A stretch of DNA of 64,000 bases from Halodesulfovibrio aestuarii DSM 17919 = ATCC 29578 (GTDB lineage Bacteria > Desulfobacterota > Desulfovibrionia > Desulfovibrionales > Desulfovibrionaceae), in contig NZ_ARQF01000021.1 of assembly GCF_000384815.1 (NCBI RefSeq), positions 682,001 through 746,000 of the forward strand. Direction: 5' to 3'. Below are positions 43,134 to 61,084 of this stretch, piece by piece. Both the position numbers and the translations under genes were made by a program. Numbering within the stretch: the stretch's first letter is position 1; the number at the start of each line of letters is the position of its first letter. The notes beneath the pieces are model-generated. The model was not told the origin of the DNA. It saw only the letters and a list, made by a program, of their open reading frames with translations, and ran no database searches.

Positions 43134-43180
43134 AGTATAGCCTGCAATGTCGCAGGCTATACTCATCTTTTTAGTTTTTT
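43134..43180 (+). terminator. Terminator-like hairpin just before the biosynthetic cluster (possible attenuator)
   Basis: A perfect 12-bp stem AGTATAGCCTGC/GCAGGCTATACT (43134-43145, 43152-43163), loop AATGTC, followed by CATCTTTTTAGTTTTTT. Only 35 nt separate the stem from the first start codon, too little for a separate promoter plus ribosome site, so cluster transcription probably passes through it. Confidence 0.75.
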
Positions 43181-43198: not shown

Positions 43199-43930
43199 AT
43201 GAGTAGTCCACGATTATCTGCGCTTATTACCGGAGCCAGTAAAGGCATTGGAGCTGCAATTGCGGTACAGCTCGCACAGGATGGATTTGATATTTTTCTT
43301 AACTACCGAAGTGACCATACTCAGGCAAAAAAAGTTGCTGAGCAGATAGAAGCTGCGGGCGTATCTTGTACGTTGCTTCCTTTTGACGTTGCTGATGGTG
43401 ATGCGGTTGAAAAGCAACTTGCCCTCCTCCTTGATGCTCCTCCGTTTGTTCTTGTTAATAATGCAGGCTTTGCTGCGGATTCCCTGTTCGGTATGATGGA
43501 TGATAATAGCTGGAAAAGTGTTATTGATGTTCATTTAAACGGATTTTTTAATGTTACTCGCACCCTTCTCCCCCGCATGATGCGCAAAAGAAAAGGTCGC
43601 ATTGTTAACATTGCCTCCACAGCCGGGCAAACTGGTAACCCCGGGCAGGCTAATTACTCAGCCGCAAAGGCGGGGCTTATTGGTGCAACCCGATCATTGG
43701 CTGTTGAAGTGGCGAAGCGTAATATTCTTGTAAACGCCGTGGCTCCCGGTTTTATCGAAACAGAAATGCTCGATGGACTTCCTGTTGATGAAATTAAAAA
43801 ACGAGTTCCACTTGGCAGATTTGGACGTCCCGAAGAAGTTGCCTACATGGTCTCTTTCCTATGCTCCGATAAAGCGCAGTATATTACCGGTCAGACGTTC
43901 TCTGTGAACGGAGGAATCTACGCGTCATGA
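43199..43930 (+). CDS. 3-oxoacyl-ACP reductase (FabG-like ketoreductase), cluster gene 1
   Basis: Short-chain dehydrogenase that reduces beta-ketoacyl-ACP with NADPH. 243 residues. The nucleotide loop is TGASKGIG, the Asn is in NNAG, and the catalytic Tyr/Lys are in YSAAKAG. C-terminal ITGQTFSVNGG is typical of FabG. ATG 43199 has AGGA six bases upstream. It overlaps the next ketosynthase by four bases (ATGA) and is the only ketoreductase of the cluster, so it would have to serve every elongation cycle. Confidence 0.9.
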   Translation: MSSPRLSALITGASKGIGAAIAVQLAQDGFDIFLNYRSDHTQAKKVAEQIEAAGVSCTLLPFDVADGDAVEKQLALLLDAPPFVLVNNAGFAADSLFGMMDDNSWKSVIDVHLNGFFNVTRTLLPRMMRKRKGRIVNIASTAGQTGNPGQANYSAAKAGLIGATRSLAVEVAKRNILVNAVAPGFIETEMLDGLPVDEIKKRVPLGRFGRPEEVAYMVSFLCSDKAQYITGQTFSVNGGIYAS

Positions 43931-45156
43931 TGCATAGAGTTGCAATTACCGGCATCGGCATTGTGTCTTGTCTGGGTCTTGATTCGGACAGTGTGCAGGA
44001 GAGCTTACGTCTTGGTATAAGTGGTATCCAAGTCGTACCTAAGCGGGAAGAAATGGGATTTTTTAGTCCACTTTCCGGTGTTATTGAAGGCTTTGATTAT
44101 GCAGGGTGCGGCCTTACGCGCCGTCAGCGTAAAACAATGCCTAATTTTACCATTCAAGCTTACTCTGCTGTGACTCAGGCTCTCGAAAAAGCCGGTTTGC
44201 AGTCTGACGATATTCAAAATGCCCGTACCGGGCTTATTTTCGGGAATGATTCAACTGCCAGAGCGCAAGCTGAACAGGCTAAGCTTACAGAGCAGGATGG
44301 TTCAACTGCTGGAATTAGTTCGGGCTACTGTTTTAAGGCAATGAACTCCACTATTACGCTTAACCTGAATGTACTGCTGGGGGTTCGCGGTGCTTCGTGG
44401 AGTATCAGTTCAGCATGTTCAAGCGGTGGCCATGCCATTGGTCAGGCTGCGGACTTAATCGCGTACGGTCGGCAAGATCGAGTCATTTGTGGTGGCGCTC
44501 AGGAAATTAACTGGGAATCATTATGCAGCTTTGATGCTCTTGAAGCATTTTCCCGTCGGGTCGACTCTCCGGCACAGGCCAGTCGTCCATTTGATGCAAA
44601 ACGCGATGGATTGGTTCCATCCGGCGGTGCGGCAGCAGTTGTTCTTGAAAGGTATGACCTTGCTGTTGCACGAGGTGCAACGATTCTCGGTGAGATAGAA
44701 GCATACGGATTTTCTTCTGACGGGCACGATTTGTGCCGCCCAAATGGTTTAGGTTTACAGGCTGCGATGGAAGATGCATTGCAGCGAGCTAATCTTGCTC
44801 CGAAGGACATCGATTTAGTTAGTGCACATGCAACGTCTACCCCTGTGGGAGATAATGCTGAAGCCTTTGCCATCGGTAATTTATTTGGTGACAATCAAGT
44901 GCGTGTTACGGCTTTAAAGTCTATGACAGGACATGAATTGTGGATGTCCGGTGCGTCACAGGTCGTATATACTCTTTTGCAGGCACAGGGCGGTTTTACT
45001 GCACGGACAATAAATTTTGAAACTGCTGATGAAATGAGCTCCAAATTACGCATTGTTCTTGATAATAACTCTACCCCTCCGGGGCGTGTCATGCTTAACT
45101 CTGCTGGTTTTGGAGGTACAAACGCCTGCCTGATCGTGAATACGGTAGAACCTTAG
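43927..45156 (+). CDS. Beta-ketoacyl-ACP synthase, cluster KS1
   Basis: FabF/KAS II-type condensing enzyme, 409 residues. The nucleophile is C164 in SSACSSGG; the two histidines are in AHATSTPVGD and MTGHELWMSG, so the Cys-His-His triad is complete. Sequence around the active site departs from housekeeping FabF (SSACSSG instead of TACATG-like), in keeping with a dedicated polyene-type ketosynthase. It overlaps gene 1 by 4 nt and is one base from the FAD oxidoreductase gene. Confidence 0.9.
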   Translation: MMHRVAITGIGIVSCLGLDSDSVQESLRLGISGIQVVPKREEMGFFSPLSGVIEGFDYAGCGLTRRQRKTMPNFTIQAYSAVTQALEKAGLQSDDIQNARTGLIFGNDSTARAQAEQAKLTEQDGSTAGISSGYCFKAMNSTITLNLNVLLGVRGASWSISSACSSGGHAIGQAADLIAYGRQDRVICGGAQEINWESLCSFDALEAFSRRVDSPAQASRPFDAKRDGLVPSGGAAAVVLERYDLAVARGATILGEIEAYGFSSDGHDLCRPNGLGLQAAMEDALQRANLAPKDIDLVSAHATSTPVGDNAEAFAIGNLFGDNQVRVTALKSMTGHELWMSGASQVVYTLLQAQGGFTARTINFETADEMSSKLRIVLDNNSTPPGRVMLNSAGFGGTNACLIVNTVEP

Positions 45157-45157
45157 T

Positions 45158-46627
45158 ATGCAGTGTGTAATTATCGGATCGGGCTGCGCTGGATTGACAT
45201 GCGCTCTTATTATGGCAAGACATGGTTACAACGTAACTGTTGTTGAAAAGAGTGTACGCCCTGCCCCGCTGCTGCAAGGTTTTGAGCGCAAAGGGTTCTA
45301 TTTTGATACTGGAGTCCACTGTCTGAGCGGTATGGATGAAGGTGGTCCGTTACGGTCCTTGCTTGAGTACCTTAATGTATATCCTTTGCTTACGTACATG
45401 CCTTTCGAAAAGGACAACAGTTTTACCGTATATTTTCCTAACGGACTCGTTTGGCAGATGCCTCAAGGGTATGAGGCATTGGAGGCTTCTCTGATTGCTC
45501 TTTTTCCTATGGAAGAAAAAGGTATTCAGGGGTTTTTGAGCGAAGTTCGTGCCATAAGTCATGCCTTCCAGTATAACGCGGATTTTCAGGTGATTGAGAC
45601 ACATCCTCTGGCAAATAAGTCGTTTCAAGAGGTCATCGATCAGTATATTTTTGAACCACAGGCGAAAATTTGTCTCGGATTTTTGAGTAACCTGTTTTGC
45701 GGACTGCTTGCTTCTGAGATCTCTTTTCCTTTTTTCGCCAGTAGTGTTGGAACATATTTCCAAAGTAGTGGCACCCTCAAAGGTGGAGGCAAAGCTCTGT
45801 TCGAGGCCATGCAGACCGAACTTTCAAATTTTGGTGGGCGGATTATTTATAACAATGGTGTCGCTGAAGTGAACGTCAATGAGAATCGACAAGCAACAGG
45901 GGTTGTTTTGGAAGATGGATCATTCTTGCCAAGCGATAAACTAATTGCAACATGTCATCCTTCCTGCTTGACGGACATTGTTTCAGGAAAATCTCTGCGG
46001 AAAACCCGAAAAGCATACTATCGCGAGTTAGAGTCCACCACATCGCTCATTGGTGTTTATGGGTATATCACAAAGCCTATCGAAAAACTTTTGCAAAGCA
46101 ATGCCGTAATTGTTTCTGATAGCTCTTGCACTGATAGCACTGTAAGCGCTGATATCCCGCTAGCCAAGCGCCAGATGCTTATTACAAGCAGCCACGCTGC
46201 GGAACATGGCACCAGTGTTTCTTTGCTTGTCCCTGCTACGTATGCAGAGTGGGAGCGATTTGTAGGGAAGAAACCACACCAGCGAATTAAAGGATATGTT
46301 GAGGAAAAGCATGCAGCTGCTAAAGAAGTTATTGCGGCTGCAATGAAATTTCTTCCTGAATTGGAAGATAACTTTTCCATGGTCAGCGTAAGCACTCCTC
46401 TTACTCTTAAAGATTATTGCTACGCTCCTCGTGGCACGGCCTATGGCGTGAAACGTTCTTTAAAACAGCTTACACCTACGGCGGCTCTTCCAATAAAAAA
46501 TATGCTGTTATCAGGACAGGCAGTTGTTGGTCCCGGGATTTTGGGTGCTATGACTGCGGGGTTTGTAACCTGCGGAGAAATTTTAGGTCATACCCATCTT
46601 CAAAGTGAGATGAAAAAATGCAGTTGA
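45158..46627 (+). CDS. FAD-dependent oxidoreductase, phytoene desaturase/CrtISO-like
   Basis: A 489-residue flavoprotein. The N-terminal dinucleotide fold is VIIGSGCAGLTCALIM, with acidic VVEK closing it. GFYFDTGVHCLSG follows, and the C-terminal FAD motif region is LLSGQAVVGPGILGAMTAG. This is the layout of carotenoid desaturases, carotene isomerases and retinol saturases. It may isomerise, reduce or desaturate the polyene chain. Such an enzyme is not part of the usual aryl-polyene gene set, so it is a distinguishing feature here. Overlaps KS2 by 10 nt. Confidence 0.85.
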   Translation: MQCVIIGSGCAGLTCALIMARHGYNVTVVEKSVRPAPLLQGFERKGFYFDTGVHCLSGMDEGGPLRSLLEYLNVYPLLTYMPFEKDNSFTVYFPNGLVWQMPQGYEALEASLIALFPMEEKGIQGFLSEVRAISHAFQYNADFQVIETHPLANKSFQEVIDQYIFEPQAKICLGFLSNLFCGLLASEISFPFFASSVGTYFQSSGTLKGGGKALFEAMQTELSNFGGRIIYNNGVAEVNVNENRQATGVVLEDGSFLPSDKLIATCHPSCLTDIVSGKSLRKTRKAYYRELESTTSLIGVYGYITKPIEKLLQSNAVIVSDSSCTDSTVSADIPLAKRQMLITSSHAAEHGTSVSLLVPATYAEWERFVGKKPHQRIKGYVEEKHAAAKEVIAAAMKFLPELEDNFSMVSVSTPLTLKDYCYAPRGTAYGVKRSLKQLTPTAALPIKNMLLSGQAVVGPGILGAMTAGFVTCGEILGHTHLQSEMKKCS

Positions 46628-47844
46628 ATAGAGTTGTTGTTACCGGAATGGGTGCAGTCTCACCCTTTGGCGAAGGGGTCGACTCTTTGCATGCGGGCAT
46701 TGCTGAAATGCGCAGTGCGATTACACATATGGAGCGGGCACAGGAAGTGCAGGATATGCGCTCTCATGTGGCCGGACTTGTTCCAGAGCTTGATATGAAG
46801 GCGATTCCCCGTAAAGATCGACGCACTATGACTGACATGGGAGTGTTTGCGCTTTTGTCTGCCAAAGAAGCCCTTTCAATGGCAGGAATTACAGAAGACC
46901 AGCTGACTTCCGGACGTTTAGGCATGGCTTTATCCTGCACAACAAACTGTGGAGAACTTATTGAAGAGTTCTTTACCCATTACCTTCCAGAAAAGACGCT
47001 CGATCATTGCAAGTCAACGACATTTTTCAAATTTATGGGACATGCTGCGGTTTCTTCTGTAGCCCAGACGCTCGGTGTTACAGGCCGCATTCTTGCTCCG
47101 GCAGCCGCATGCGCTACAAGCACCCAGTCGATCGGGCTTGGGTATGAGGCTATTTTGTTGGGGCAGCAAGATATGATGATTTGTGGTGGTACCGAGGAAA
47201 TTCATCCCTTAAGTATCGCTTCATTTGATTTTATCAACGCAGCATCTACAAAATTTAACAATGCCCCTCAGGATACTCCACGTCCGTTTGATGTGGAACG
47301 TGATGGTGTTGTCTGTGCAGAGGGTGCAGGGCTGCTGCTTTTGGAATCGTATGATCACGCAATAAAACGCGGTGCAAAAATTCTTGCTGAAATTGTCGGG
47401 TTTTCAACGCTCTCTTCCCCTAAAAACCCTGCAAACCCAGATAGCCATGCGATTAAGCTTTGCATGGAAGAAGCTCTGCGGCAAGCAGGCCTTCTTCCCG
47501 AAGATATTGATTATTTGAACGCACATGCCACAGGTACGAGTGCAGGTGACATCGCAGAGTCAAAAGCCATCGAAGAACTTTTTGATACAAATTTACCGGT
47601 TTCCAGTTTTAAAGGCCACCTTGGGCATACTCTTGCAGCAAGTGGCGCACTGGAAACTATTGCTACTATTTCAGGACTACAGAACGATATGTTGTATCCG
47701 ACAAGGAATTTAGAACAGATTGATCCCGAATGCGGTTCAATTAATCTGCTCACAAAAACTTGTAAGGCTTCTGTGACCTATTTTTTGAAAAATAGTTTTG
47801 CCCTTGGCGGCATAAATGCTTCTCTCATTTTAAGGAGATTATAA
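46618..47844 (+). CDS. Beta-ketoacyl-ACP synthase, cluster KS2
   Basis: 408-residue condensing enzyme with an intact triad: C165 in PAAACATST, His in NAHATGTSAGD and His in GHLGHTLAASGALE. It resembles FabF/KAS II and ladderane/aryl-polyene ketosynthases more than FabB by the GHTLAASG region. Begins inside the end of the FAD enzyme gene and is followed after 2 nt by ACP1, its likely partner. Confidence 0.9.
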   Translation: MQLNRVVVTGMGAVSPFGEGVDSLHAGIAEMRSAITHMERAQEVQDMRSHVAGLVPELDMKAIPRKDRRTMTDMGVFALLSAKEALSMAGITEDQLTSGRLGMALSCTTNCGELIEEFFTHYLPEKTLDHCKSTTFFKFMGHAAVSSVAQTLGVTGRILAPAAACATSTQSIGLGYEAILLGQQDMMICGGTEEIHPLSIASFDFINAASTKFNNAPQDTPRPFDVERDGVVCAEGAGLLLLESYDHAIKRGAKILAEIVGFSTLSSPKNPANPDSHAIKLCMEEALRQAGLLPEDIDYLNAHATGTSAGDIAESKAIEELFDTNLPVSSFKGHLGHTLAASGALETIATISGLQNDMLYPTRNLEQIDPECGSINLLTKTCKASVTYFLKNSFALGGINASLILRRL

Positions 47845-47846
47845 CT

Positions 47847-48116
47847 GTGACTCTCGCCACTATGACTAAAGAAGAAATTATTGAGATCACCAATAACGCT
47901 ATCAGTGATGAATTTGAATTTGATCTGGAGCAGATGGTTCCAACTGCGCACTTATATAAAGATCTTGGTCTGGATAGTCTTGATGCTGTCGACCTTGTGT
48001 TGTTACTGGAAAAATCTTTTGGTGTAAAATTACGTAACCAGCCGGAAGTAAAAGAAGTGCGTACGCTTGAAGATATTTACAAGCTGATTATGCAATTGCA
48101 GCAGGATGCTGCATAA
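47847..48116 (+). CDS. Acyl carrier protein, cluster ACP1
   Basis: 89-residue acidic carrier protein. The phosphopantetheine serine is S44 in LGLDSLDAVDLV. The start is GTG 47847, nine bases after AAGGAG. The spread of acidic residues and four-helix pattern fit type II systems. No phosphopantetheinyl transferase is present in the window, so activation must use a host enzyme. Confidence 0.93.
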   Translation: MTLATMTKEEIIEITNNAISDEFEFDLEQMVPTAHLYKDLGLDSLDAVDLVLLLEKSFGVKLRNQPEVKEVRTLEDIYKLIMQLQQDAA

Positions 48117-48121
48117 TAATA

Positions 48122-48913
48122 GTGACTATGAGCACAAGTAGAAAAAAGTCATCGCCGAAATTGTATACAGTGCTGTTGCTTTGCTTTTTATTGCTGCACA
48201 CACTGGTGACCTCTCTGGCTGCGTTTATTGCCTCGCCCTACTATCTTTTTGTTAAGAAGATGCCGCTCGATAAAATGATTCGTTATTTTATCTGGCTGTA
48301 TGGGAAGGGGTATGTGCGATGTACTCGCTTTTTCATACCTGCATCACTTAGTTGGGAAGGCGAAAATCCCTTTCCTTTGCAGGCACCGTCGATTGTTGTC
48401 ATGAACCACTACTCTATCCTGGATTTGTATTACCTTGGGGTACTACTCCATGATGGTGATATTGTTTTTGTGACACAGCGAAGACCCTTTTTAATAAAGC
48501 TCTACGCTCCGTTCATGTCTATGGCGAAATATATTGATATGCGCACTGGAGATTTTTCTAGCTGTCTTGAGCAATGCAGAGAGCATCTCAATAATGGAAG
48601 CAAAATTCTCTTTTTTCCAGAGGCGGGGCGTAGTCGGGATGGTACGTTGCAGCCATTTAAAAGTGCCCCTTTTCTGGTTGCCACAGAATGCAATGTTCCT
48701 GTTATTCCGTTTTGCATTTCCGGTACAGAAATATTGCTCCCTGCCGGAGCAAAATACATTACACCTACAAATATTTCTTTACGTATATTGCAGCCGCTAT
48801 ATCCAGAACAGTATTCAGGCGACTTTCCGCACAGGGTGCTTAAAAAAATGGTGCACAAGCAAATGAAACGCGCCTTGGAAACACAAAAAAGAGTTTTAAG
48901 AGAGGCACAGTAA
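48122..48913 (+). CDS. PlsC-type acyltransferase with N-terminal membrane helix
   Basis: 263-residue 1-acylglycerol-3-phosphate acyltransferase-like protein. The N-terminal membrane helix is at about residues 15-40. The catalytic NHX4D motif is MNHYSILDLYYL and the acyl-acceptor motif is FPEAGRSRDG (usual FPEGTRS). In aryl-polyene-type clusters such a protein is thought to move the finished chain to a lipid acceptor. GTG 48122 and ATG 48128 are both possible starts; the ribosome site is weak. Ends one base into the dehydratase gene. Confidence 0.83.
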   Translation: MTMSTSRKKSSPKLYTVLLLCFLLLHTLVTSLAAFIASPYYLFVKKMPLDKMIRYFIWLYGKGYVRCTRFFIPASLSWEGENPFPLQAPSIVVMNHYSILDLYYLGVLLHDGDIVFVTQRRPFLIKLYAPFMSMAKYIDMRTGDFSSCLEQCREHLNNGSKILFFPEAGRSRDGTLQPFKSAPFLVATECNVPVIPFCISGTEILLPAGAKYITPTNISLRILQPLYPEQYSGDFPHRVLKKMVHKQMKRALETQKRVLREAQ

Positions 48914-49338
48914 TGAGAGAACCGGCGTCACTCTATGTTCCGCATTCTGGCTCTATGTTATTAGTTGATACGATCATCGATCATCATGACGACAACGGCG
49001 TCGTTGAAACTACTTTTACTGCCGGAAGTATGTTTGCTGATAGTAATGGTATTTTGCAGCCATTAGTATTTATTGAACTGCTTGCTCAAGGGTTTGCCTC
49101 ATTGAATGGATACACTAACCATTTGAAAGATGCAGAAAAGCAAAAAGGCTTTCTTGTCGGTGTCAAGAATATACGATTTTACGATACTACTGCAGTTACA
49201 GTTGGCATGACCCTGACGGCAAAATTACAAGTAGATATTCGCTTTGATGATTTTACCATGGTTCATGGCTCTCTTTTGCACGAGAGTACGCTGCTTATGG
49301 ATGGGACACTAAAACTATTTATTCCGGAAACAACGTAA
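48913..49338 (+). CDS. Hot-dog-fold 3-hydroxyacyl-ACP dehydratase-like protein (ApeP-type)
   Basis: 141 residues. PHSGSMLLVDTI near the N-terminus and QPLVFIELLAQGFAS match the hot-dog dehydratases of aryl-polyene clusters (FabZ-like His in the HSGSM region, acidic residue on the long helix). It would remove water from 3-hydroxyacyl-ACP and so leave the double bonds that build a polyene. Coupled to its neighbours by single-base overlaps at both ends. Confidence 0.78.
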   Translation: MREPASLYVPHSGSMLLVDTIIDHHDDNGVVETTFTAGSMFADSNGILQPLVFIELLAQGFASLNGYTNHLKDAEKQKGFLVGVKNIRFYDTTAVTVGMTLTAKLQVDIRFDDFTMVHGSLLHESTLLMDGTLKLFIPETT

Positions 49339-49961
49339 TGCGTACAATTTTTATGAGTTTTTTAATGCTGGTATGCTTAGCAGTACCTGCTACTTCTTTT
49401 AGTAAAGAGGCATCTCTTTTTGACCGTATTAAACTGGCCAACGCGAATGTTTCAGTTGTTAAAGCAGCCTTTGAGCAATCGTCCAAGTTGGCATTGTTTA
49501 ACGATCCCTTAGTGGTTACGGGCGAGCTTGTTTTGCAAAAACCTCAAAATTTGCGATGGGAATACACTTCCCCCTCTGCATCAGGTTTTATTTTAAATAA
49601 AAATGGTGGGCTACAGTGGTGTAGCACAGGCAAGAACTGCTCTGTTGTTCGCTCTGAGTTGTCCCCTTCGTTGCGCGTAATGGCCAATCAAATGTTGTTG
49701 TGGGTAAATATTGATGAGGAAACTCTTACTGAAGATTTTCATATAAAGATTACTGAATCAAAAAATCCGACAATTTTGTTACAGCCTAAGGATGAAGATA
49801 TGGCAAAGTTTATTAGAAGCATTGCTATTGAGCTACCTGAGTCCTTGCGTGGAGTTAAAGATATAACGGTAACAGAAGCAAATGACAGCGTAATTACGTT
49901 GAAATTTGGAAAGACACTCATCAACCCTGAGATTGCGCCTACTACTTTCAAAATGCCATGA
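49338..49961 (+). CDS. LolA-like periplasmic carrier, cluster-specific
   Basis: 207-residue protein with a signal peptide (residues 1-22, ending PATSFS) and LolA-type elements (VKAAFEQSSKLALF, then LVLQKPQNLRWEYTSP). It differs strongly from the housekeeping LolA at 10170. Adjacent to an MMPL exporter and a lipoprotein, it probably ferries a lipid product rather than lipoproteins across the periplasm (inference from aryl-polyene clusters). Overlaps the MMPL gene by 4 nt. Confidence 0.85.
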   Translation: MRTIFMSFLMLVCLAVPATSFSKEASLFDRIKLANANVSVVKAAFEQSSKLALFNDPLVVTGELVLQKPQNLRWEYTSPSASGFILNKNGGLQWCSTGKNCSVVRSELSPSLRVMANQMLLWVNIDEETLTEDFHIKITESKNPTILLQPKDEDMAKFIRSIAIELPESLRGVKDITVTEANDSVITLKFGKTLINPEIAPTTFKMP

Positions 49962-53091: not shown

Positions 53092-53477
53092 CCCCTATTG
53101 AACAAAGTCTAATGAATGCGCTTGTAGGAACTATTACCTGCACCGGTGAAAGCGCTGAAGCTTGCTATCATTTGCCTGAAGATTTTGAAGGCTTTAACGG
53201 GCACTTCCCCGGTCATCCTATCCTTCCTGCTATTTTGCAGTTTATGCTTGGCAGGCTGGTATGCAGCGCCCTTGCCGGAGAGTCGTTACGTGTTACTTCC
53301 ATAAGCCGTGCAAAGTTCTCACATGAAATTCAGCCTGAAGTGGATATTTATGTGCAGGCAGTACGCAAAGATATATCTGCTGAAAATATCCATCGGTTTT
53401 CTGTGACATTAACAGTTGGCACTGCGCAAGCTTCTACCTTCTCACTTTTCTGTGTTGCAGAGCAGGAACATGCGTAA
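53088..53477 (+). CDS. FabA/FabZ-like hot-dog dehydratase
   Basis: 129 residues. The FabZ-type signature is GHFPGHPILPAILQFML, with active-site His in GHFPG. The usual catalytic acid on the central helix (E in FabZ, D in FabA) is not clear: the helix reads AILQFMLGRLV, with Q at this place. It may therefore be a second dehydratase with altered chemistry or a structural partner of the first one at 48913. Overlaps the thioesterase by 8 nt. Confidence 0.78.
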   Translation: MTPIEQSLMNALVGTITCTGESAEACYHLPEDFEGFNGHFPGHPILPAILQFMLGRLVCSALAGESLRVTSISRAKFSHEIQPEVDIYVQAVRKDISAENIHRFSVTLTVGTAQASTFSLFCVAEQEHA

Positions 53478-53937
53478 AGAATATTTTAAAATTGACCCAG
53501 GTGCTCCTGCGCCGTTGACTGTTGAAGTAAAGCGTGATGTGCGCTTTCAGGAAGTAGATCTGCTTGGCATTGTATGGCACGGGCATTATGCAAGTTATTT
53601 TGAAGATGCTAGAATGGCTTTAAGCCAAAAGTACGGAATATCTTATGACGATTTTTATCGTGAAAATATTTCTGCTCCGATTCGTAAATTGCATGCTGAC
53701 TATTTTCGTCCGCTATCTTTAGGTAATGAATACAGCATTAAAGCTCGATTGCATTACGCTGATGCGGCAAAGATTAATTATGACTTCTTTATTTATGACA
53801 ATGCAGGAGAACTTTGTACCTCCGGTTACTCTGTTCAGATGTTTGTGTGCACAGAAAGCCATGAGTTATTACTTGCCCCACCTCCTTTTTTTCAAGATTT
53901 TCTTGATAACTGGCGTGATGGGAACCTGTTAAAATGA
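53470..53937 (+). CDS. 4-hydroxybenzoyl-CoA thioesterase-family protein
   Basis: 155 residues, hot-dog acyl thioesterase of the YbgC/FadM type. The signature VRFQEVDLLGIVWHGHYASYF (shown by its ends: V-R-F to S-Y-F, 21 residues) carries the conserved D-x-x-G-x-V-x-H/N pattern with Asp and the following WHGHY. The frame is open 18 codons upstream, but ATG 53470 has CAGGA and matches the family. It may release or proofread ACP-bound chains. Last gene of the first cluster block; a 249-nt gap follows. Confidence 0.87.
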   Translation: MRKEYFKIDPGAPAPLTVEVKRDVRFQEVDLLGIVWHGHYASYFEDARMALSQKYGISYDDFYRENISAPIRKLHADYFRPLSLGNEYSIKARLHYADAAKINYDFFIYDNAGELCTSGYSVQMFVCTESHELLLAPPPFFQDFLDNWRDGNLLK

Positions 53938-54186
53938 CAACGATGCTGTAGTTCTTTAAACGCATTTTTATGGTTGCCTGTGTTGTAAAGCCCGACTACC
54001 AATGTTCTGCGCCTGTTGAAGGCATAAAACTTAAAGTATTACTTTAGGTTTGTTCCGTAGAAGAAATAACACAATTTTTCCGCATCATAAGTTGAGAAAT
54101 GAATAAGACACCTCGTAGCATAGGACATCCTGAATTCTTTGAGGCTAAGCTGTTCGCAATTTTTAAAGGGTGTCAGGAATGTTTTT
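53938..54186 (+). other. Internal gap of the cluster
   Basis: 249 nt without a gene between the two blocks of otherwise overlapping genes. It has a weak imperfect hairpin (CTTAAAGTATTACTTTAGG, near 54030) but no convincing terminator. It may hold a second, internal promoter. Confidence 0.4.
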
Positions 54187-55386
54187 ATGTCGATAGAGGT
54201 TGTGATGTCTAATTTCGTCCGTCCACTTATTGTTATTCCTGTCTTCAATCACCGGGAAGAGCTCTCCCGCGTTGCTATAGAGGCACTTGAACATGGGGAC
54301 GTTCTGATTGTTGATGATGGTTCAACTGATGGCGTAAGCGCAGATATTGCCTCCCTTGCTGTACAGTGTATCCGGCATAGTAAGAACAGGGGCAAAGGCG
54401 CTGCTATTCTTACAGCAGCAGCTTATGCAAGAGAGCACGGCTACACGCATATTGTAACTATTGATGCAGACGGTCAGCACCTTACTGCTGACCTTCCAAA
54501 ATTTTTTGTGGCTATAGAGGCAAATCCAGACTCTGTTGCTGTTGGTGTACGCGATTTTTCAAATGCAAAAAATCGTAATATCCCCGGTTCTGCTACTTTT
54601 GGGCGGGCATTTTCAAATTTTTGGTTCCGCGTGCAAACCGGTGAAAAAGGTTTAGACACTCAAAGTGGCTTTAGAGCGTATCCGGTTGGGCTATTGCAGG
54701 AACTTTCTTTTAGTGAATCCCGTTACTCATTCGAGATAGAAGTGCTTGTAAAAGCAGTTTGGGCAGGATTGTCCATCCAATGGCTTCCTATCCATGTTCA
54801 TTATCCAGAACCGGAAAAGCGTGTGAGTCATTTGCATCGGGTGAAAGATAATATTTTGATCTCATGGTTGAATACGCGCCTTACCATGCGCGCTGTGTTG
54901 CCTATTCCGCATCGCAAACTTGTTCGTGTGGAACAAAGTGTTGAAAACGCTTCAGAGCAATTTTATCTTACGCGTCCTGTAGATTCATTGCGTGATATGG
55001 TGCGGCAAGGTGCAAGTCCGGAGTATGTTGGATTTTCTGCTGGTCTTGGTGTGTTACTTGGTACATGGCCGCTTTTTGGTATTCACACTGTTGCGACACT
55101 GTTCGCTGCAAGTTTTTTACGACTGTCAAAAGTAATTTCCGTAGGAACCAGTCAATTCTGTATGCCTCCATTTGTGCCAGCCCTATGTATTGAAGTTGGC
55201 TATTTTATCCGGAACGGTGAATGGCTTACAGACGTTTCGTGGCAGACTCTTGGTGTAGAGTTTTTAGACAGGGCTTGGGAATGGATTCTGGGATCGTTAG
55301 TCTTAGCACCGATTTTGGCCGGTGTAACAGGACTCGTTTTCTACTTGGTGACCCGTTCAATTTATAAATTGAGACAAGAGATATGA
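54187..55386 (+). CDS. GT2 glycosyltransferase fused to DUF2062 membrane domain
   Basis: About 399 residues. The N-terminal GT-A domain resembles dolichol-phosphate mannosyltransferase-like GT2 enzymes: VIPVFNH, IVDDGSTDG and TIDADGQH with the DxD-like metal site. The C-terminal part (about residues 280-390) is DUF2062 with hydrophobic helices (GVLLGTWPLFGIHTVA). ATG 54187 (AGGA upstream) and ATG 54205 (AGAGG upstream) are both good starts. Similar proteins sit in aryl-polyene clusters and may glycosylate the lipid head group. Overlaps the next acyltransferase by 4 nt. Confidence 0.85.
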   Translation: MSIEVVMSNFVRPLIVIPVFNHREELSRVAIEALEHGDVLIVDDGSTDGVSADIASLAVQCIRHSKNRGKGAAILTAAAYAREHGYTHIVTIDADGQHLTADLPKFFVAIEANPDSVAVGVRDFSNAKNRNIPGSATFGRAFSNFWFRVQTGEKGLDTQSGFRAYPVGLLQELSFSESRYSFEIEVLVKAVWAGLSIQWLPIHVHYPEPEKRVSHLHRVKDNILISWLNTRLTMRAVLPIPHRKLVRVEQSVENASEQFYLTRPVDSLRDMVRQGASPEYVGFSAGLGVLLGTWPLFGIHTVATLFAASFLRLSKVISVGTSQFCMPPFVPALCIEVGYFIRNGEWLTDVSWQTLGVEFLDRAWEWILGSLVLAPILAGVTGLVFYLVTRSIYKLRQEI

Positions 55387-56303
55387 CCCGAAAGTCAAAA
55401 TGTAACAGGTCGGAAAAATCTTGGAGCGGTAAAAGCCTTGCAGGCCGTTGGCAGCACGAATTTTTTTTCATACTTATTAAATATTGCGGTCGATGGCCTG
55501 CGTATATTTTTTCATGTTTTGTTGTTTTCTTTTATGTCCTTTTTGTGCCGGAAGTTCATAAGCGTTCTTCTTTTTACATTGCAAAACGTTTTCCGAAGGC
55601 TTCGAAATGTGCACGTTGGTATCATACTTGGCGTCTTTGCCAGAACCTTGCGTTTTCTCTCATAGATAAAGCGGCGGTCGGTATCAGAGGCACACAAGAA
55701 TTTTCATATTCCCGGAATGGCATTGAACAGTTGCAGGAACTGCAAGAGCAAGGCAATGGTCTTATTTTGCTTACAGTCCATGTAGGTCCTTGGCAGGCGA
55801 TGTTAGGCCCCCTTGATGAATTGAATACACCTGTGCATCTTATGGTGTACCGTGATTCCGGTGATGTAGATTTACAGTATTTTGACTTCAATCACTGTAA
55901 AAATATTAAGTTAGTGCATGCAGAGGACACAATGGGAAGTGTTATTGCAATGACTGCGGCACTGCGAAAAAATGAAATTATATCCATCATGGGGGACAGA
56001 ATTGTTCCATCTACATCATATACTGCAAGTGTTGATTTTTTAGGTGGAAAAGCTTTGTTTCCTACCTCTGTGTACAAATTTGCTAAAGGCACGCAATCTC
56101 CTGTTGCTCTGCTCGTGACACGTAAAGTGGGTATTTCGCATATGGAACTTTCTGTAGCACATGTTCTCACTGTTCCTAAAGCAACGGGTAATGACTTTAC
56201 GCCTTTTGCACAGGAGATAGCGTTCGCGCTGGAAAAATACGTACAAGAAACTCCGTATCAATTTTATAACTTCTTCGATCTCTGGAGAACAACGAATGAG
56301 TAA
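55383..56303 (+). CDS. LpxL/HtrB-like acyltransferase, cluster copy
   Basis: 306-residue lysophospholipid/lipid A acyltransferase-family protein. The catalytic motif is HVGPWQ in LLTVHVGPWQAML (HX4Q/D instead of the usual HX4E/D), MGDRIV and FLGGKALFPTSVYKF match the later family blocks. It is the second acyltransferase of the cluster and distinct from the lipid A gene at 4178. It may transfer the ACP-bound product to a glycolipid. Overlaps ACP2 by 8 nt. The Gln at the acid position is worth noting: activity should not be assumed. Confidence 0.82.
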   Translation: MTRKSKCNRSEKSWSGKSLAGRWQHEFFFILIKYCGRWPAYIFSCFVVFFYVLFVPEVHKRSSFYIAKRFPKASKCARWYHTWRLCQNLAFSLIDKAAVGIRGTQEFSYSRNGIEQLQELQEQGNGLILLTVHVGPWQAMLGPLDELNTPVHLMVYRDSGDVDLQYFDFNHCKNIKLVHAEDTMGSVIAMTAALRKNEIISIMGDRIVPSTSYTASVDFLGGKALFPTSVYKFAKGTQSPVALLVTRKVGISHMELSVAHVLTVPKATGNDFTPFAQEIAFALEKYVQETPYQFYNFFDLWRTTNE

Positions 56304-56556
56304 TATGCATCAAAAATTAAAAGAACTCTTCATTGCAGAATTAAACCTTGAAGATATTTCTCTTGAAGAGTGGGAAAATGATATGCCGCTTTTCGGAGAT
56401 GGACTTGGTCTTGATTCTCTCGATGCAGTTGAAATCGTAGTTTTTATTGAAAAGCATTACGGTGTTGTCATCGCGAATTTTGATGAAGACAAAAAAGCTA
56501 TGCGTTCTATCAACACTCTTGTTGAATTTATTAAGGAAAAACAGGCTAATGACTAG
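56296..56556 (+). CDS. Acyl carrier protein, cluster ACP2
   Basis: 86 residues. Phosphopantetheine serine S41 in LGLDSLDAVEIV. It is close in motif to ACP1 but has a different N-terminus. It overlaps the preceding acyltransferase and the following KS3 gene by 8 nt each, so the three are translated as a group. Two ACPs per cluster is usual for aryl-polyene-type systems. Confidence 0.92.
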   Translation: MSNMHQKLKELFIAELNLEDISLEEWENDMPLFGDGLGLDSLDAVEIVVFIEKHYGVVIANFDEDKKAMRSINTLVEFIKEKQAND

Positions 56557-57739
56557 CGTTTTCATTACCGGAACAGGTTGTATTACTGGTTCCGGTAGCA
56601 CCCCGCAAAGTACGCTTGCCGCCATGTACGAAGGTACTGCGGATCCTTCCCCTTTTGTACGCCATAGGATGGACTGGGGCAAAGAGGCTCTGGTGTTTGC
56701 CGTTGATGATGCGCTGTTAGAAAGAGCATCGGGACGAACGGAACAGTACGGACTTACGGCCAGGCTAGGCCTTGGCGCAGCGTTTCAGGCCTTGGAAGAT
56801 GCCGGAATTTCTCCTGCTGACTTGAAAGGTAAGCGTGTAGGCGTTGTGATGGGGACAACTGTAGGTTGCTCCATGAACCATATCGTTTTTTATGGTGAGT
56901 ACCGAGATCCTGACATTGCGTTGCCATCTATGGAGCATATCCGATGTGTTTTGCGGAGTAATCCAGCAGAAGCCATTGCCCGGGAACTTGCGGTAGTCGG
57001 CCCTGCTCAGACTGTCGTCACCGCATGTGCTTCCGGCACAGATGCTATTGGAGTCGGGTTACAGTGGATTCAGTCCGGTATGTGCGACATGGTTATTGCG
57101 GGCGGCTGTGATGGTCTTTCTAGAGTGACCCTTAATGGATTTCATTCACTTATGGTGATGGACAGTGAACGTAGTAAGCCGTTTGATGTGGATCGCAAGG
57201 GCTTAAATCTTGGGGAAGGTTCCGGTGTACTGGTTCTTGAGTCTGAGCAGTCTGTGACACAACGTAACGTAACGCCGAAAGCACGCCTTGCCGGTTACGC
57301 AACTGCGTGTGATGCGTATCATCTCACGGCACCGCATCCGCAAGGGCGTGGACTCATTCGCGCTATAAAGCAACTTTTTGCCCACATAGAGTGCACTCCT
57401 GCAGACATCAGCTTTGTGAATGTCCATGGTACTGGTACCAAGGATAATGACAATGTTGAAGGGTATGTAATGAACGAGTTGTTGCCCCATGTTCCATTTT
57501 TTTCTTCCAAGGGCGCTACAGGGCATACTCTTGGCGCTGCGGGTGGTATTGAGGCTGCCTTATGCGTGCATTGTCTGAATCAGGGACGCATTCCACCCAC
57601 AACAGGCTTAACAACGCCTGACCCGACTATTCCAGCTTCTCCGGTGCTTGAAGCTACTAACGTAACTGGCACAATTGCACTTTCGACCTCATTGGCCTTT
57701 GGTGGAATAGCCTCTGTGCTTGCTGTTTCTCACATTTAA
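56549..57739 (+). CDS. Beta-ketoacyl-ACP synthase, cluster KS3
   Basis: 396 residues from ATG 56549 (overlapping the ACP2 stop as ATGACTAG). The frame continues upstream inside ACP2 but this start fits the family N-terminus (SVFITGTGCITG). The triad is complete: C160 in VTACASGTDAIG, His in NVHGTGTKDND and His in GATGHTLGAAGG. The conserved FDVDRKGLNLGEGSG follows the active site. It probably acts with ACP2 and perhaps pairs with the Cys-less KS4. Confidence 0.9.
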   Translation: MTSVFITGTGCITGSGSTPQSTLAAMYEGTADPSPFVRHRMDWGKEALVFAVDDALLERASGRTEQYGLTARLGLGAAFQALEDAGISPADLKGKRVGVVMGTTVGCSMNHIVFYGEYRDPDIALPSMEHIRCVLRSNPAEAIARELAVVGPAQTVVTACASGTDAIGVGLQWIQSGMCDMVIAGGCDGLSRVTLNGFHSLMVMDSERSKPFDVDRKGLNLGEGSGVLVLESEQSVTQRNVTPKARLAGYATACDAYHLTAPHPQGRGLIRAIKQLFAHIECTPADISFVNVHGTGTKDNDNVEGYVMNELLPHVPFFSSKGATGHTLGAAGGIEAALCVHCLNQGRIPPTTGLTTPDPTIPASPVLEATNVTGTIALSTSLAFGGIASVLAVSHI

Positions 57740-57760
57740 GACACACAACAGGCAACGCTA

Positions 57761-58846
57761 ATGGATTGTAACAAAAACTCTTTTTCAAAGCCGGATGTTA
57801 TTCCTGTGCTCGATTTTGAGCTTTCGGAAATTATGCAGGCTCGTGATAAGGGTAATATTTTATCGCTTGATTTAGAAATTACCGAGGCATGCAACTGTGC
57901 ATGTGTATACTGCTACCGGTATGAGAGTGAAGGAGCACAGCCCCCTGCTGCTGACGAACTCACAGCACAGGAGATTATTGAGCTTCTGACTGAAGCGAAA
58001 GAAAAGCATGATTTGCGCCGTATTTGCATCCTTGGTGGCGAGCCACTTATCCCTGTAATTCGTGAGAAGTACATCGCAACACTTGAATGTTGTAACAGAC
58101 TTGGCATTGAGCATGTAACTTTTTCCAACGGTGTGGCGCTGGATAAAGAAACCGCGCAATTACTGTACGATTTAAATGCCTCTGTCTGTCTTAAATTAAA
58201 TGGGATGAATGCGCAGACTCATGATGCTCTGGTCGCACGGGCAGGTGCTTTCGACAAAAGCATGTCCGCGTTTAATCATCTCATTGAATTAGGGTTTGGG
58301 AACAAGCGAAGCCTTTCATTTGAAACAGTTGTTACCAAAACTAACTACAATCAAATTACTGACATGTGGCGATGGGCGCGTGAGCGCAATATTGTGCCGT
58401 ATGTAGAGACATTGACAGTGCAGGGGCGGAGTCAAGCTCATCCCAATGATCTTGTTGTTTCCAACGAAAAACTACATGCCCTATTTGTCCGGCTGAATGA
58501 AATTGATCATGCGGAATACGGTCTGGAATGGGAAATTTTACCGCCGATTGCTGGCGGTCATCGCTGCCTGCGCTACTACATGAGCATGTATGTCCGTGCT
58601 AACGGCATAGTTTGCCCATGTGTTGGCGTCGACCTTCAAATGGGATCACTGCGGACAGACTCGATTAAAGAGATTCTTAGTTCTGAAGTTGCTTGTCAAA
58701 CACGCTACATTAATGAGCATATTACTGGAAAATGTAAAACCTGTGATCTTGCTAAGTCGTGTTACGGGTGCCGAGGTGCCGCGTATCAGCAAGGCGATCT
58801 TTTTGGTGAAGACCCTGTTTGCTGGCGTGAACAGAGTAACAGGTGA
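57761..58846 (+). CDS. Radical SAM enzyme with SPASM-like C-terminal domain
   Basis: 361 residues. The radical SAM cluster site is C44-x3-C48-x2-C51 (EACNCACVYCYR), followed by the GGEP SAM-binding motif (CILGGEPL). The C-terminal part has further cysteines (VCPCVG, then GKCKTCDLAKSCYGCRG and VCW) fitting a SPASM domain with auxiliary Fe-S clusters. SPASM enzymes often modify peptides, but some act on small molecules or sugars. No precursor peptide gene was seen nearby. In this cluster it may tailor or cyclise the acyl chain or make the starter unit. Unusual for aryl-polyene clusters. Confidence 0.88.
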   Translation: MDCNKNSFSKPDVIPVLDFELSEIMQARDKGNILSLDLEITEACNCACVYCYRYESEGAQPPAADELTAQEIIELLTEAKEKHDLRRICILGGEPLIPVIREKYIATLECCNRLGIEHVTFSNGVALDKETAQLLYDLNASVCLKLNGMNAQTHDALVARAGAFDKSMSAFNHLIELGFGNKRSLSFETVVTKTNYNQITDMWRWARERNIVPYVETLTVQGRSQAHPNDLVVSNEKLHALFVRLNEIDHAEYGLEWEILPPIAGGHRCLRYYMSMYVRANGIVCPCVGVDLQMGSLRTDSIKEILSSEVACQTRYINEHITGKCKTCDLAKSCYGCRGAAYQQGDLFGEDPVCWREQSNR

Positions 58847-58853
58847 CATTTGT

Positions 58854-60053
58854 ATGCAGCCTATTCTTTCTATAGATGATATCAGCAGAATTCTCCTGAG
58901 TATCTGCCGCTCGGCAGTGCAGGAACATACTTCTATGCCTTTGCATAAACTTGAAGAGGATTCGAGCCGGTCTATTGTTTCCCTACTGGAAGGCACTACT
59001 ATTTTACCGATGGCTATCGCAGCGCATGTTTCAACCATGTTTCAATGCCCTGCTCTTGCCGAAGTCCTTTGCGGTGATGACAGTATTGAGCATTGGGCGG
59101 GTGCTATTTATCACGAATGGTCACAGGATCCTGCTATAATTACATTTATAACATCAGGGTCAACAGGAAAGCCAACACAGCAGAAACTTGAATCTGTGTT
59201 ATTATGGCAGGAGGCGCAGGAACTGCAACGCACCCTTCTTCATGAAAGAAAGCGCATTGTATCAACCGTTCCATGTCACCATGTCTATGGATTTTTATTC
59301 ACCGTACTACTCCCCAAAGTTGCGGAAATTCCGTGTCTAATACCGGTTCCATTCCCTTCACGAGCTTTTATTGAAGAGTTGAAGGAAGGAGACTTTATAG
59401 TTTCTTTCCCACTCTTTTGGAACGGGTTGATTAAGCTCGGCATACCATTTCCTGCAAACATTCATGGTTCCACTTCTACTGCGCCGTGCTCACCTGAGAC
59501 AATGCACCAACTGCTTTCTTTAGGGCTTGCACGCATCAGCAATATTTATGGCAGTTCTGAAACGGGTGGACTTGGTTTTCAGCACCACCCTGATGCACCG
59601 CTGACGTTATTTAATTTTTGGCAACGCGTTCGTTGCGATGATATTGAAAATTCGTGGATTGAACGTGTTCATCCTCTTGATATCCCTCAACCCCCTGTTG
59701 CTATCCCTGACTTTGTTGAATGGTTCTCTCACGAGTTATTTGCAGTGAGGGGACGTAAAGATAAAATCGTTCAGGTTGGTGGTATTAACGTTTCTTTACT
59801 GAAAACAGCTGCCTGTATAAAACAACACCCTGATGTTTTGGACTGTGCTGTGCGTTTAATGCGACCGGATGAAGGAAATCGTTTGAAGGCATTTATTCTC
59901 CCAAGAAGTTTTGAGCCGGATACGATCGCGTTGCGAGCAGAGTTATATCAGTGGTGCCGTAATCGTTTACGGCCTGCTGAACGTCCAAAAAAAATTACAT
60001 TTGGAAATCAATTCCCAGTCAATGCAATGGGTAAAGCCAAGGATTGGAACTAG
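58854..60053 (+). CDS. AMP-binding acyl/aryl ligase
   Basis: 399 residues from ATG 58854 (AGGTGA upstream); the open frame extends back over the radical SAM gene but that part is a shadow. Motifs: phosphate loop FITSGSTGKPTQQ, YGSSETGG, RGRKDKIVQVGG hinge and catalytic lysine near the end in NAMGKAKDW. Shorter than 4-coumarate:CoA ligases (about 540), like compact ligases of aryl-polyene clusters. It would activate a carboxylic starter and load it on an ACP; the starter is unknown. Confidence 0.86.
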   Translation: MQPILSIDDISRILLSICRSAVQEHTSMPLHKLEEDSSRSIVSLLEGTTILPMAIAAHVSTMFQCPALAEVLCGDDSIEHWAGAIYHEWSQDPAIITFITSGSTGKPTQQKLESVLLWQEAQELQRTLLHERKRIVSTVPCHHVYGFLFTVLLPKVAEIPCLIPVPFPSRAFIEELKEGDFIVSFPLFWNGLIKLGIPFPANIHGSTSTAPCSPETMHQLLSLGLARISNIYGSSETGGLGFQHHPDAPLTLFNFWQRVRCDDIENSWIERVHPLDIPQPPVAIPDFVEWFSHELFAVRGRKDKIVQVGGINVSLLKTAACIKQHPDVLDCAVRLMRPDEGNRLKAFILPRSFEPDTIALRAELYQWCRNRLRPAERPKKITFGNQFPVNAMGKAKDWN

Positions 60054-60055
60054 TC

Positions 60056-61015
60056 ATGTCACAACATCGCGAAATATATATTCTTGGTACAGGAATAGTG
60101 ACACCGCATGGTGAGCAGCAGAATGCTCTGCCTGTGGATTTGGTCGCTTCCAGTATTACTGATTCCAGCCAGCGGACTGATACTTCCGGATTGACAAAGT
60201 TTATTCCCAAACGTGCCCTTAGACGTATTGATCATTTTTCCCGTCTGGCACTTTATGCTTCTTTTCTTGCTCTTGAAGATGCCGGTTTGTTAGAAACGGA
60301 CCATGAAAATATGGGAGTGGCATTAGCCAGTGGCTATGGTGCTGCGCAGACTTCATTTAGTTTTCTTGACTCTTTTTTTAATGACGGAGACAGGCTTGCG
60401 TCCCCTACCTACTTCTCAAGCGGGTTACATAATGCGGCATCCGCATACATTGCTATGCAGACTAAAGCCCAAGGACCAAACATTTGTACAAGTAATATCG
60501 GGCTTGGTCCTGCGTACTCACTCGCCACTGCCGTGCATTGGTTAAAAACCGGTATAGTGGATTACGTCCTTGTTGGTGGAGTGGATGAACATTGTCAGGT
60601 ATTGGAACATTGCGTTAACCGTTTTCAGTCTGCTGAAGAAGGGGCATGCTTGCTTCCGGATGTCGTTGCAGGAGAAGGCGCCGCTTTTCTTGTTTTAGGA
60701 ACCAAACCTGAAAGAACAACTTCCTGTGTACTTACAGACATCAAGATTGAACCATACTCTAAACAGACGCTTCAACACATGTGTCCGGTGTTTGTTGCTC
60801 CGCTGGGGTTAACTGATCAGCAGAGTATTGTTGCACGTATTACCGCCGGAGAGAACGTCACAAATATTTTGCCTGTGTTAGGAAGCCACCCTTCTGCGTT
60901 AGCTTTTTCCTCTGTGCAGGCAGTACAGAGTATCCTTTCCGGTGCCGTATCAGAAGCTCAGGCCTTTGCTTTAGACGGAGCAAGGAACAGCGCGGTTATT
61001 TCGTTCAGCAAGTAG
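60056..61015 (+). CDS. Cys-less ketosynthase-like protein (chain-length-factor type), cluster KS4
   Basis: 319 residues from ATG 60056. The thiolase fold is recognisable (YILGTGIVTPHG, ALASGYGAAQTS, GVDEHC), but the nucleophile region reads TSNIGLGPAYSLATA, so the position of the catalytic Cys is Ile by alignment to KS3. It is about 80 residues shorter, and the second catalytic-His region appears as GSHPSALAFS. It likely pairs with KS1-KS3 as a chain-length factor rather than a condensing enzyme. Last gene of the cluster, 2 nt after the ligase, followed by a terminator. Confidence 0.8.
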   Translation: MSQHREIYILGTGIVTPHGEQQNALPVDLVASSITDSSQRTDTSGLTKFIPKRALRRIDHFSRLALYASFLALEDAGLLETDHENMGVALASGYGAAQTSFSFLDSFFNDGDRLASPTYFSSGLHNAASAYIAMQTKAQGPNICTSNIGLGPAYSLATAVHWLKTGIVDYVLVGGVDEHCQVLEHCVNRFQSAEEGACLLPDVVAGEGAAFLVLGTKPERTTSCVLTDIKIEPYSKQTLQHMCPVFVAPLGLTDQQSIVARITAGENVTNILPVLGSHPSALAFSSVQAVQSILSGAVSEAQAFALDGARNSAVISFSK

Positions 61016-61042: not shown

Positions 61043-61084
61043 AAAAGCGCGATGCCATCACATAAATGGTATCGCGCTTTTTTT
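61043..61084 (+). terminator. Terminator at the end of the biosynthetic cluster
   Basis: A 16-bp stem (61043-61058 with 61066-61081, one G-U pair) with a 7-nt loop and seven T to 61084, 28 nt past the last cluster gene. Confidence 0.92.

Follow-up and report, generated by a model that had tools for sequence, protein, structure and literature searches.

Which lipid is built by a bacterial operon that joins most of the genes of an aryl-polyene (APE) cluster to a carotenoid-desaturase-like oxidoreductase and a radical S-adenosylmethionine (rSAM) enzyme, a mix recalling the gene sets proposed for ladderanes? The question is raised by positions 43199-61015 of a 64,000-nucleotide stretch of contig NZ_ARQF01000021.1 (the whole stretch is hereafter the window) from Halodesulfovibrio aestuarii DSM 17919, a salt-loving, sulfate-reducing bacterium whose genome measures 3.55 Mb with a completeness score of 99.99%. 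The region holds 19 genes, g01 to g19 (Table 1), all on the plus strand and with the look of one operon; a first, sequence-only reading had spoken of seventeen, while its own inventory sums to 19. Given this gene content, the operon likely encodes an APE-type type II polyketide pathway that anchors a conjugated polyene acyl chain on an outer-membrane lipid, with simplified tailoring of the ladderane class; a pigment-like polyene lipid is the probable product that the 19 genes make and export. Two unusual features were overlooked in the first reading: the loss of a pair of B12/rSAM genes and the divergence and relocation of the remaining rSAM gene.

The case for an APE-type pathway begins with the APE cluster of E. 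coli CFT073 (c1186-c1204), to which 17 of the 19 genes match by blastp or profile, some of them weakly, the exceptions being g03 and g17. Common to both are the ketoreductase, a ketosynthase (KS) paired with a chain-length factor (CLF), an ApeR-type KS, two acyl carrier proteins (ACPs), the ApeI and ApeP dehydratases, the ligase, PlsC, the GT2 glycosyltransferase with its acyltransferase, the thioesterase, and LolA, MMPL and DUF3261 homologues. The ApeO/ApeC pair corresponds to g16 and g19 and the ApeR-type KS to g04, while the ketoreductase ApeQ and the dehydratases ApeI and ApeP have their counterparts in g01, g11 and g07. The outer-membrane transfer set ApeD, J, K, L, M and N is present, with a weak match for ApeN. 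The proposal of a type II polyene or acyl lipid cluster with an outer-membrane transport set is supported. The two clusters also differ, as the window adds the CrtI-like g03, the rSAM/SPASM protein g17 and an extra FabB-like KS, divides ApeJ into two genes (g13 and g14), and has no counterpart of ApeA, ApeB or ApeG in the operon; blastp identities across the matches are 22-44%. It weighs against the APE assignment that g06-g09, g11, g14 and g18 reach only 22-27% by blastp and that g10 is matched by profile only.

Four KS-family proteins had been proposed at the outset, and this holds in full for g02, g04 and g16, which carry the Cys-His-His residues, whereas g19 (323 aa) has neither the active-site Cys nor the His. 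It is because of these missing catalytic residues that g19 is equated with the chain-length factor ApeC; by similarity it matches ApeR and ApeO better than the E. coli CLF (weak, profile 1.8e-6). The KS assignments to APE genes rest on direct blastp and not on profiles, which may include paralogues (their rows are the best match per locus) and of which that of g16 ranks ApeR over ApeO. Among solved structures, g04 is closest to 4ewg and 7f27, both ApeR-type and described in excerpts of one report as PpApeR and AbApeR (PMC8358021). By eye, g04 keeps the aromatic residues F118 and F202 of AbApeR and replaces Y135 by Phe. For g16, ApeO is among the best solved relatives, and the closest PDB entry by sequence is 9s5h. 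The structural model of g16 (predicted local distance difference test score, pLDDT, 77) lies closest to the ishigamide KS 6kxd (Z 49.5, root-mean-square deviation (rmsd) 3.7, 385 residues aligned), tied with FabF structures; since both fall within 1 Z unit, the fold alone is no proof of polyene specificity. The g03 model (pLDDT 89) has the gamma-carotenoid desaturase 4rep as its top match (Z 36.7, 444 aligned, rmsd 2.8; next matches 32.4 and 30.2), and its best NCBIfam model is a carotenoid isomerase, at 79 bits far under the cut-off.

An ordinary aryl-polyene cluster, in which g03 and g17 would do no more than adjust the redox state or provide the aryl starter, leaving a standard APE lipid as the product, could explain the 17 matches, the resemblance of g18 to 4-coumarate ligase and ApeH, and the retention in g04, as read by eye, of F118 and F202, with Phe at Y135. 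It appears quite unlikely, given that g03 and g17 have no APE counterpart, yet a g03 homologue recurs in 17 of the 19 regions fetched from relatives; that the genome has neither an ammonia-lyase nor a chorismate lyase; and that the operon has no ApeB-type methyltransferase.

For the APE-type pathway with altered tailoring, gene content and homology suggest a scheme whose chemistry, step order, starter and cellular location are predictions. The ligase g18 would load a carboxylic, probably aryl, acid onto an ACP, and the KS-CLF pair g16/g19, aided by g04 and g02, would extend it with malonyl units. Reduction by g01 and dehydration by g07 and g11 would follow, and the double bonds may be retained, because no enoyl reductase is evident within the operon. 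The polyene could then be desaturated or isomerised by g03 and modified by g17 through radical chemistry of unspecified kind, before g12, g06, g13 and g14 place the chain on a lipid anchor that is glycosylated or acylated and g09, g08 and g10 export the lipid. The ancestral Halodesulfovibrio pathway would have included two extra B12/rSAM enzymes encoded between g12 and g13. The product is probably an aryl-polyene.

What, then, could be the starter unit? The first reading had stressed the lack of an ammonia-lyase, and none is indeed found, as no PF00221 protein is encoded in the near-complete genome, including outside the cluster. As a distinguishing trait this fails: the absence is not diagnostic because the APE cluster of E. 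coli has no ammonia-lyase either (excerpts of PMC8253772; RefSeq annotation), and its 4-hydroxybenzoate is said there to derive from UbiC (PMC8253772). Across the order, PF00221 occurs in 13 of 198 genomes, four of which (G010, G130, G163 and G196) belong to the 20 with a g17 homologue, and in those four it is separated from the rSAM gene by 69 kb or more, or is on a different contig. The window genome encodes no chorismate lyase, whether of the UbiC (PF04345) or the Rv2949c type (PF01947); the search did not extend to further sources of aryl acids. The best model for g18, a homologue of ApeH, is the 4-coumarate-CoA ligase TIGR02372 (223 bits, below the cut-off of 335), which is also the best for the ligases of three relatives (232-246 bits) and, more weakly, for E. 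coli ApeH (75 bits). It is this match that favours an aryl acid as the starter, towards which we lean. The acid may come from another source, perhaps as an aryl acetate by analogy with the celluxanthenes of other anaerobes, which are made by a type I system according to excerpts of PMC12144888. A flexirubin-type FlxY ligase is absent from the operon, where the TIGR02372-like g18 is the sole AMP-ligase (the search was confined to the operon). In relatives, the gene X6 encodes a FlxY-like ligase, scoring 468 bits in L023 against the FlxY model NF053551 (below the cut-off of 520), and has no equivalent in the window operon. The X6 genes of L022, L023, L039 and many loci from named genomes are PaaK/FlxY-like (L023 was the one tested), and 4-coumarate-type and FlxY/PaaK-type ligases alternate across otherwise similar clusters. 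Another small gene of relatives, X0 (L024 9333-9743 and 10 other regions), adjoins the rSAM gene and encodes a protein 40% identical to E. coli ApeA; it has no counterpart in the window operon.

The second question is how the locus relates to the clusters labelled ladderane. Of 199 genomes in the order, 20, that of the window among them, encode a g17 homologue (1e-30). Among the 19 regions around the other homologues, 18 have a homologous cluster and 17 a g03 gene, and the gene order g01-g06, rSAM, g07-g12 recurs; the locus L022 is a short contig starting within the cluster, and L035 is truncated by a contig end on one flank and free of cluster genes on its other flank. The co-occurrence of cluster genes in relatives exceeds chance. 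Beyond the order, a scan of named genomes covered the best 80 of 357 relatives, and its counts are lower bounds. These 80 loci include Desulfobacterota, Nitrospirae, Omnitrophota, Kiritimatiellae, Geobacter and others, and a similar gene order is seen in Desulfobacterota, Nitrospirota, Omnitrophota and Planctomycetes-Verrucomicrobia-Chlamydiae (PVC) genomes. By tblastn on 32 of the 80 loci, taken with 10 kb on both sides, g03 is found in at least 24, and the core set g01, g04, g07, g08 and g09 is complete in at least 14 (all 14 with g03). A gene like TIGR04072, the B12/rSAM family named rSAM_ladder_B12, is found with a profile of our own (above 300 bits) in at least 16 of the 32. Such clusters were noted in Kuenenia and Desulfotalea, with mention of Geobacter and Pelobacter, in the excerpts of Rattray et al., 2009 (PMC2649909), and those of a Cariaco study report expressed antiSMASH 'ladderane' clusters of unexplained function in many phyla (PMC9902471). 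Judging from gene content, clusters of the window type appear to be these reported 'ladderane' clusters.

By the descriptions in these excerpts, the proposed Kuenenia (kuste3335-3352 and others), Desulfotalea and antiSMASH 'ladderane' clusters share with the window a CrtI-like protein, a radical SAM enzyme, several KSs, a ligase, a glycosyltransferase and a membrane protein with a lipid-transport domain (PMC2649909, PMC4790861). In the window, the CrtI-like g03 stands beside FabF-type KSs, between g02 and g04, and g17 is the rSAM/SPASM enzyme of the cluster, if a divergent one, so that the ladderane-like mix of enzymes described in the first reading is borne out. The window differs in lacking the TIGR04072 gene (the best score in its genome is 33 bits against a cut-off of 360) and a second B12-rSAM gene, in its 4-coumarate-type rather than PaaK-type ligase, and in that no SAM methyltransferase was found in the operon. 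A genuine ladderane, or some other cyclised fatty acid that is not aromatic, with g03 making a polyene and g17 starting radical ring closure, would suit the CrtI-like and rSAM proteins, divergent KSs, ligase and membrane protein that recall the Kuenenia candidates (excerpts of PMC2649909), as well as the presence of TIGR04072 in close relatives. Such a product is nevertheless very unlikely here, since neither TIGR04072 nor, in the operon, the PaaK/FlxY-type ligase X6 of many relatives is present; moreover, the available excerpts state that no ladderanes were formed, in the conditions tried, by Desulfotalea, whose cluster is syntenic (PMC2649909), and that Kuenenia genes in E. coli yielded none (PMC4790861).

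The first reading also called the predicted lipid new. The kind of cluster is not, having been known since 2009 (PMC2649909) and being widespread across many phyla (PMC9902471), as far as the excerpts of these papers go; what is new is the TIGR04072 remnant, the loss of the pair and the divergent, relocated g17.

The remnant lies at 53938-54204, the sole junction of the operon that neither overlaps nor spans 21 nt or less, just as the first reading had stated. Where the window has this gap, the cluster of H. spirochaetisodalis JC271 (genome G145; loci L021, L077 and L171), otherwise identical in the order g01-g19 and in chromosomal site, has two open genes between g12 and g13 (L021 8147-9553 and 9556-10818), both encoding B12-binding and radical SAM domains. 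The one adjoining g13 belongs to TIGR04072 (552 bits, cut-off 360), and a third Halodesulfovibrio genome, G199, likewise has a TIGR04072 gene and a second B12-rSAM gene. Translated in one frame with stops as X, the gap can be aligned with the C-terminal ~80 residues of the JC271 TIGR04072 protein (score 58; 0 of 300 shuffles) and to the corresponding stretch of G199 (score 50; 0 of 300), and in a scan with the JC271 protein it ranks first of 1,497 stretches (995 from the window, 500 shuffles), the next scoring 4.3 bits. It has three internal stop codons, two of them within the aligned part. The gap ends in DRGCDV-stop where JC271 has DRGCNG-stop, and the stop overlaps the start of g13 identically in both. 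Several points tell against the gap being a remnant: the JC271 protein scores it at just 8.6 bits (E 0.3 over all frames), a family-wide profile of 25 TIGR04072 genes gives -1.8 bits, and a nucleotide comparison of the gap finds a match in JC271 (0 of 300 shuffles) and none in G199 (297 of 300). The exactness of the junction with g13 nevertheless persuades us to read it as the decayed tail of a TIGR04072 gene. No trace of the second B12-rSAM gene (X2) is detectable in the gap. Relocation of the two genes elsewhere in the window genome was considered and rejected, as a genome-wide search gave no TIGR04072 above the cut-off and, at 1e-5, nothing resembling the second gene.

TIGR04072 itself exceeds its cut-off in 27 of 199 genomes of the order, 14 of them among the 20 with g17. 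We know of no reaction for this family, and a literature search of limited scope turned up no paper naming it, none linking flexirubin with radical SAM and none on Halodesulfovibrio with these cluster names.

When was the pair lost? Ten Halodesulfovibrio genomes were compared, of which four (window, G200, JC271 and G199) have the window-type cluster, two (G131 and G174) another type, and four no g04 match at 1e-90. Kept in JC271 and G199, the pair is gone in the window and in G200, whose gap ends in RGCD-x-stop, a similar terminus by eye. In a tree of 17 joined genes (5,413 columns; g01 and g10, not obtained from G199, left out), the window groups with G200 with a support of 100/100, which makes a single loss the simplest account, most likely in their common ancestor. 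Two separate losses are possible, because the G200 gap gives no significant alignment, 13 and 36 of 300 shuffles reaching its best scores, and because g17, taken by itself, yields a tree that pairs the window with JC271 and not G200 (support 82). Some 58 kb away from the G200 cluster lies a 31% relative of the second gene, taken as a paralogue.

Could the loss have broken the pathway, leaving a decaying operon without a product? The pseudogene remnant within the operon would fit. This we regard as highly improbable, given that all 19 frames are open in the window and the G200 genes are free of stops (g19 is partial at a contig end). Between the two genomes, the ratio of nonsynonymous to synonymous substitution rates (dN/dS) is 0.03-0.15 for all 19 genes, indicating purifying selection, with the limitation that dS (0.7-2.4) is near saturation. 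Moreover, six of the 20 genomes with the cluster rSAM, window included, have no TIGR04072 over the cut-off. Maintenance of the operon without the pair is hence favoured, the alternative being two separate, later losses. Because the pair was lost while the remaining genes stayed under selection, the window product would probably be a simpler variant of that of H. spirochaetisodalis.

The other distinct version of the cluster in the genus, at L029 (G174) and L031 (G131), has a g04 51-52% identical to that of the window and groups with a Pelobacter metagenome-assembled genome in the g17 tree, which suggests transfer between genera.

The divergence of g17 is the second feature of this lineage. The protein keeps the CX3CX2C motif and the SPASM cysteines, which are invariant over 17 aligned rows (one from the window and 16 from other loci; of the 19 such loci, L003, L017 and L009, the last with a stop in frame, were not included). 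It is 36.9% identical to its relatives in the order, which share 60.6% among themselves. This deficit of 23.7 points compares with -1.9 to 12.0 for the 16 other genes measured (g18 and g19 outside the set; 16 of 19 regions, with pairs at least 85% alike set aside). In a tree of 96 rows made by a quick method (of 101, five duplicate loci and one without a match were dropped; the G199 protein is not included), a branch of 2.46 sets the proteins of the window, G200 and JC271 off from the others. Further, g17 sits between g16 and g18, compared with between g06 and g07 in 17 regions of relatives, and no closer source was found in 395 genomes of the phylum (best 40%). As JC271 and G199 have this type too (that of G199 is 71% identical to window g17), it predates the loss of the B12-rSAM genes. 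Both a new function for g17 and its replacement by a far relative are possible.

A more far-reaching history is conceivable though unlikely. In it, an aryl-polyene pathway of this Halodesulfovibrio lineage gained ladderane-class radical tailoring, its SPASM enzyme (divergent and relocated, yet strongly conserved in the genus) evolved a new activity, and the B12 pair was later lost on the way to the window genome. If it were true, the product would be a polyene lipid altered by radical chemistry, with a carbon skeleton of a new class, and the ladderane-family B12 radical step would be precisely what distinguishes the window product from that of JC271. Ladderane formation and the products of ladderane-like clusters outside anammox bacteria are described as unsolved in excerpts of three reports (PMC2649909, PMC4790861, PMC9902471), and TIGR04072 occurs in many such clusters, often with a second B12/rSAM enzyme. 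Halodesulfovibrio offers both states in one genus, the pair being present in JC271 and G199 and absent in the window and G200 with the remaining operon conserved, and therefore a comparison of their lipids could reveal the role of the pair without a genetic system. Moreover, the match of 17 of 19 genes to APE connects two cluster classes that surveys list separately.

Coming to the layout of the locus, all protein types named in the first reading are present on the plus strand, with Pfam bearing out most of the functions; g07, g09 and g11 score under the Pfam cut-offs. The lipoprotein assignment of g10 stands in part, as a lipobox is visible by eye and neither Pfam nor NCBIfam gives a match. 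Hairpin/T-tract signals ahead of g01 and past g19 make a single rightward transcription unit g01-g19 plausible, since they sit at both ends of the operon; across the whole scan, terminator-like sites are in no excess (22 versus 19.8 +/- 4.8 in shuffles). Rfam gave nothing above thresholds in 38000-64000.

Table 1. Features of the operon and its borders in the window; g01-g19 are the operon genes.
Feature	Coordinates	Strand	Evidence
Terminator-like hairpin, 5' of operon	43134..43163	+	Terminator scan
g01 FabG/ApeQ-like ketoreductase	43199..43930	+	PF13561 202 bits, PF00106 178 bits; 43.5% to E. coli ApeQ
g02 FabB/ApeR-like ketosynthase, Cys-His-His intact	43927..45156	+	Pfam, ApeR comparison, residue check
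g03 CrtI/CRTISO-like flavoprotein	45158..46627	+	PF01593; no APE counterpart
g04 ApeR-type ketosynthase	46618..47844	+	4ewg 274 bits, 7f27 273 bits; 37.6% to E. coli ApeR
g05 acyl carrier protein, ApeF-like	47847..48116	+	PF00550; 42% to ApeF
g06 PlsC-type acyltransferase, ApeD-like	48122..48913	+	PF01553; profile 6e-28 to ApeD
g07 hot-dog dehydratase, ApeP-like	48913..49338	+	PF22817 under cut-off; profile 2.6e-21 to ApeP
g08 LolA-like chaperone, ApeL	49338..49961	+	PF03548; ApeL match
g09 MMPL/RND exporter, ApeM	49958..52420	+	Pfam under cut-off; profile 2e-58 to ApeM
g10 lipoprotein, DUF3261/LolB-like, ApeN (weak)	52417..53091	+	5-row profile 7.7e-6; no blastp match to ApeN
g11 FabA-like dehydratase, ApeI	53088..53477	+	PF07977 under cut-off; profile 5.3e-14 to ApeI
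g12 4HBT thioesterase, ApeK	53470..53937	+	PF13279; profile 7e-32 to ApeK
Putative decayed C-terminus of TIGR04072 B12/radical SAM gene	53940..54212	+	Alignment to JC271 gene; junction with g13
g13 GT2-DUF2062 glycosyltransferase, ApeJ N-terminal half	54205..55386 (start 54205 or 54187)	+	PF00535, PF09835
g14 LpxL-type acyltransferase, ApeJ C-terminal part	55383..56303	+	PF03279; profile 5.7e-39 to ApeJ
g15 acyl carrier protein, ApeE-like	56296..56556	+	PF00550; 39% to ApeE
g16 ApeO-type ketosynthase, Cys-His-His intact	56549..57739	+	Pfam; 33.6% to ApeO (blastp)
g17 radical SAM/SPASM enzyme, divergent Halodesulfovibrio type	57761..58846	+	PF04055, PF13186
g18 AMP-ligase, ApeH/4-coumarate ligase-like, start inferred	58854..60053	+	PF00501, PF13193; TIGR02372 223 bits, cut-off 335
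g19 KS-like chain-length-factor protein, no active Cys/His	60044..61015	+	PF00109, PF13723; residue check
Terminator-like hairpin, 3' of operon	61043..61081	+	Terminator scan, 16 pairs

The next gene, g20 (61191-62201, plus strand), encodes a lipoprotein-like alpha/beta hydrolase and follows the cluster in the window, JC271 and G199; it is excluded from the operon because it lies beyond the terminator-like hairpin. The neighbours shared with JC271 are g20 on the right and, on the left, QueF, a Vut_1-type transporter and a choloylglycine-hydrolase-family gene. The last of these, at 39655-40752 on the minus strand (PF02275, 252 bits), is 55% identical in JC271, compared with 81-87% for three adjacent genes. 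The G200 cluster (L172 769-11984, on contig G200:C14) occupies another chromosomal site, with an apparent RND exporter, a thioesterase and a receptor-like gene (by eye only) as neighbours on the opposite strand. Farther away in the window, the minus strand of 27957-34791 holds an ordinary rpoN neighbourhood, with genes for a RapZ-like protein, an S30EA-type protein, sigma-54, an ABC ATPase and a DAHP synthetase family protein.

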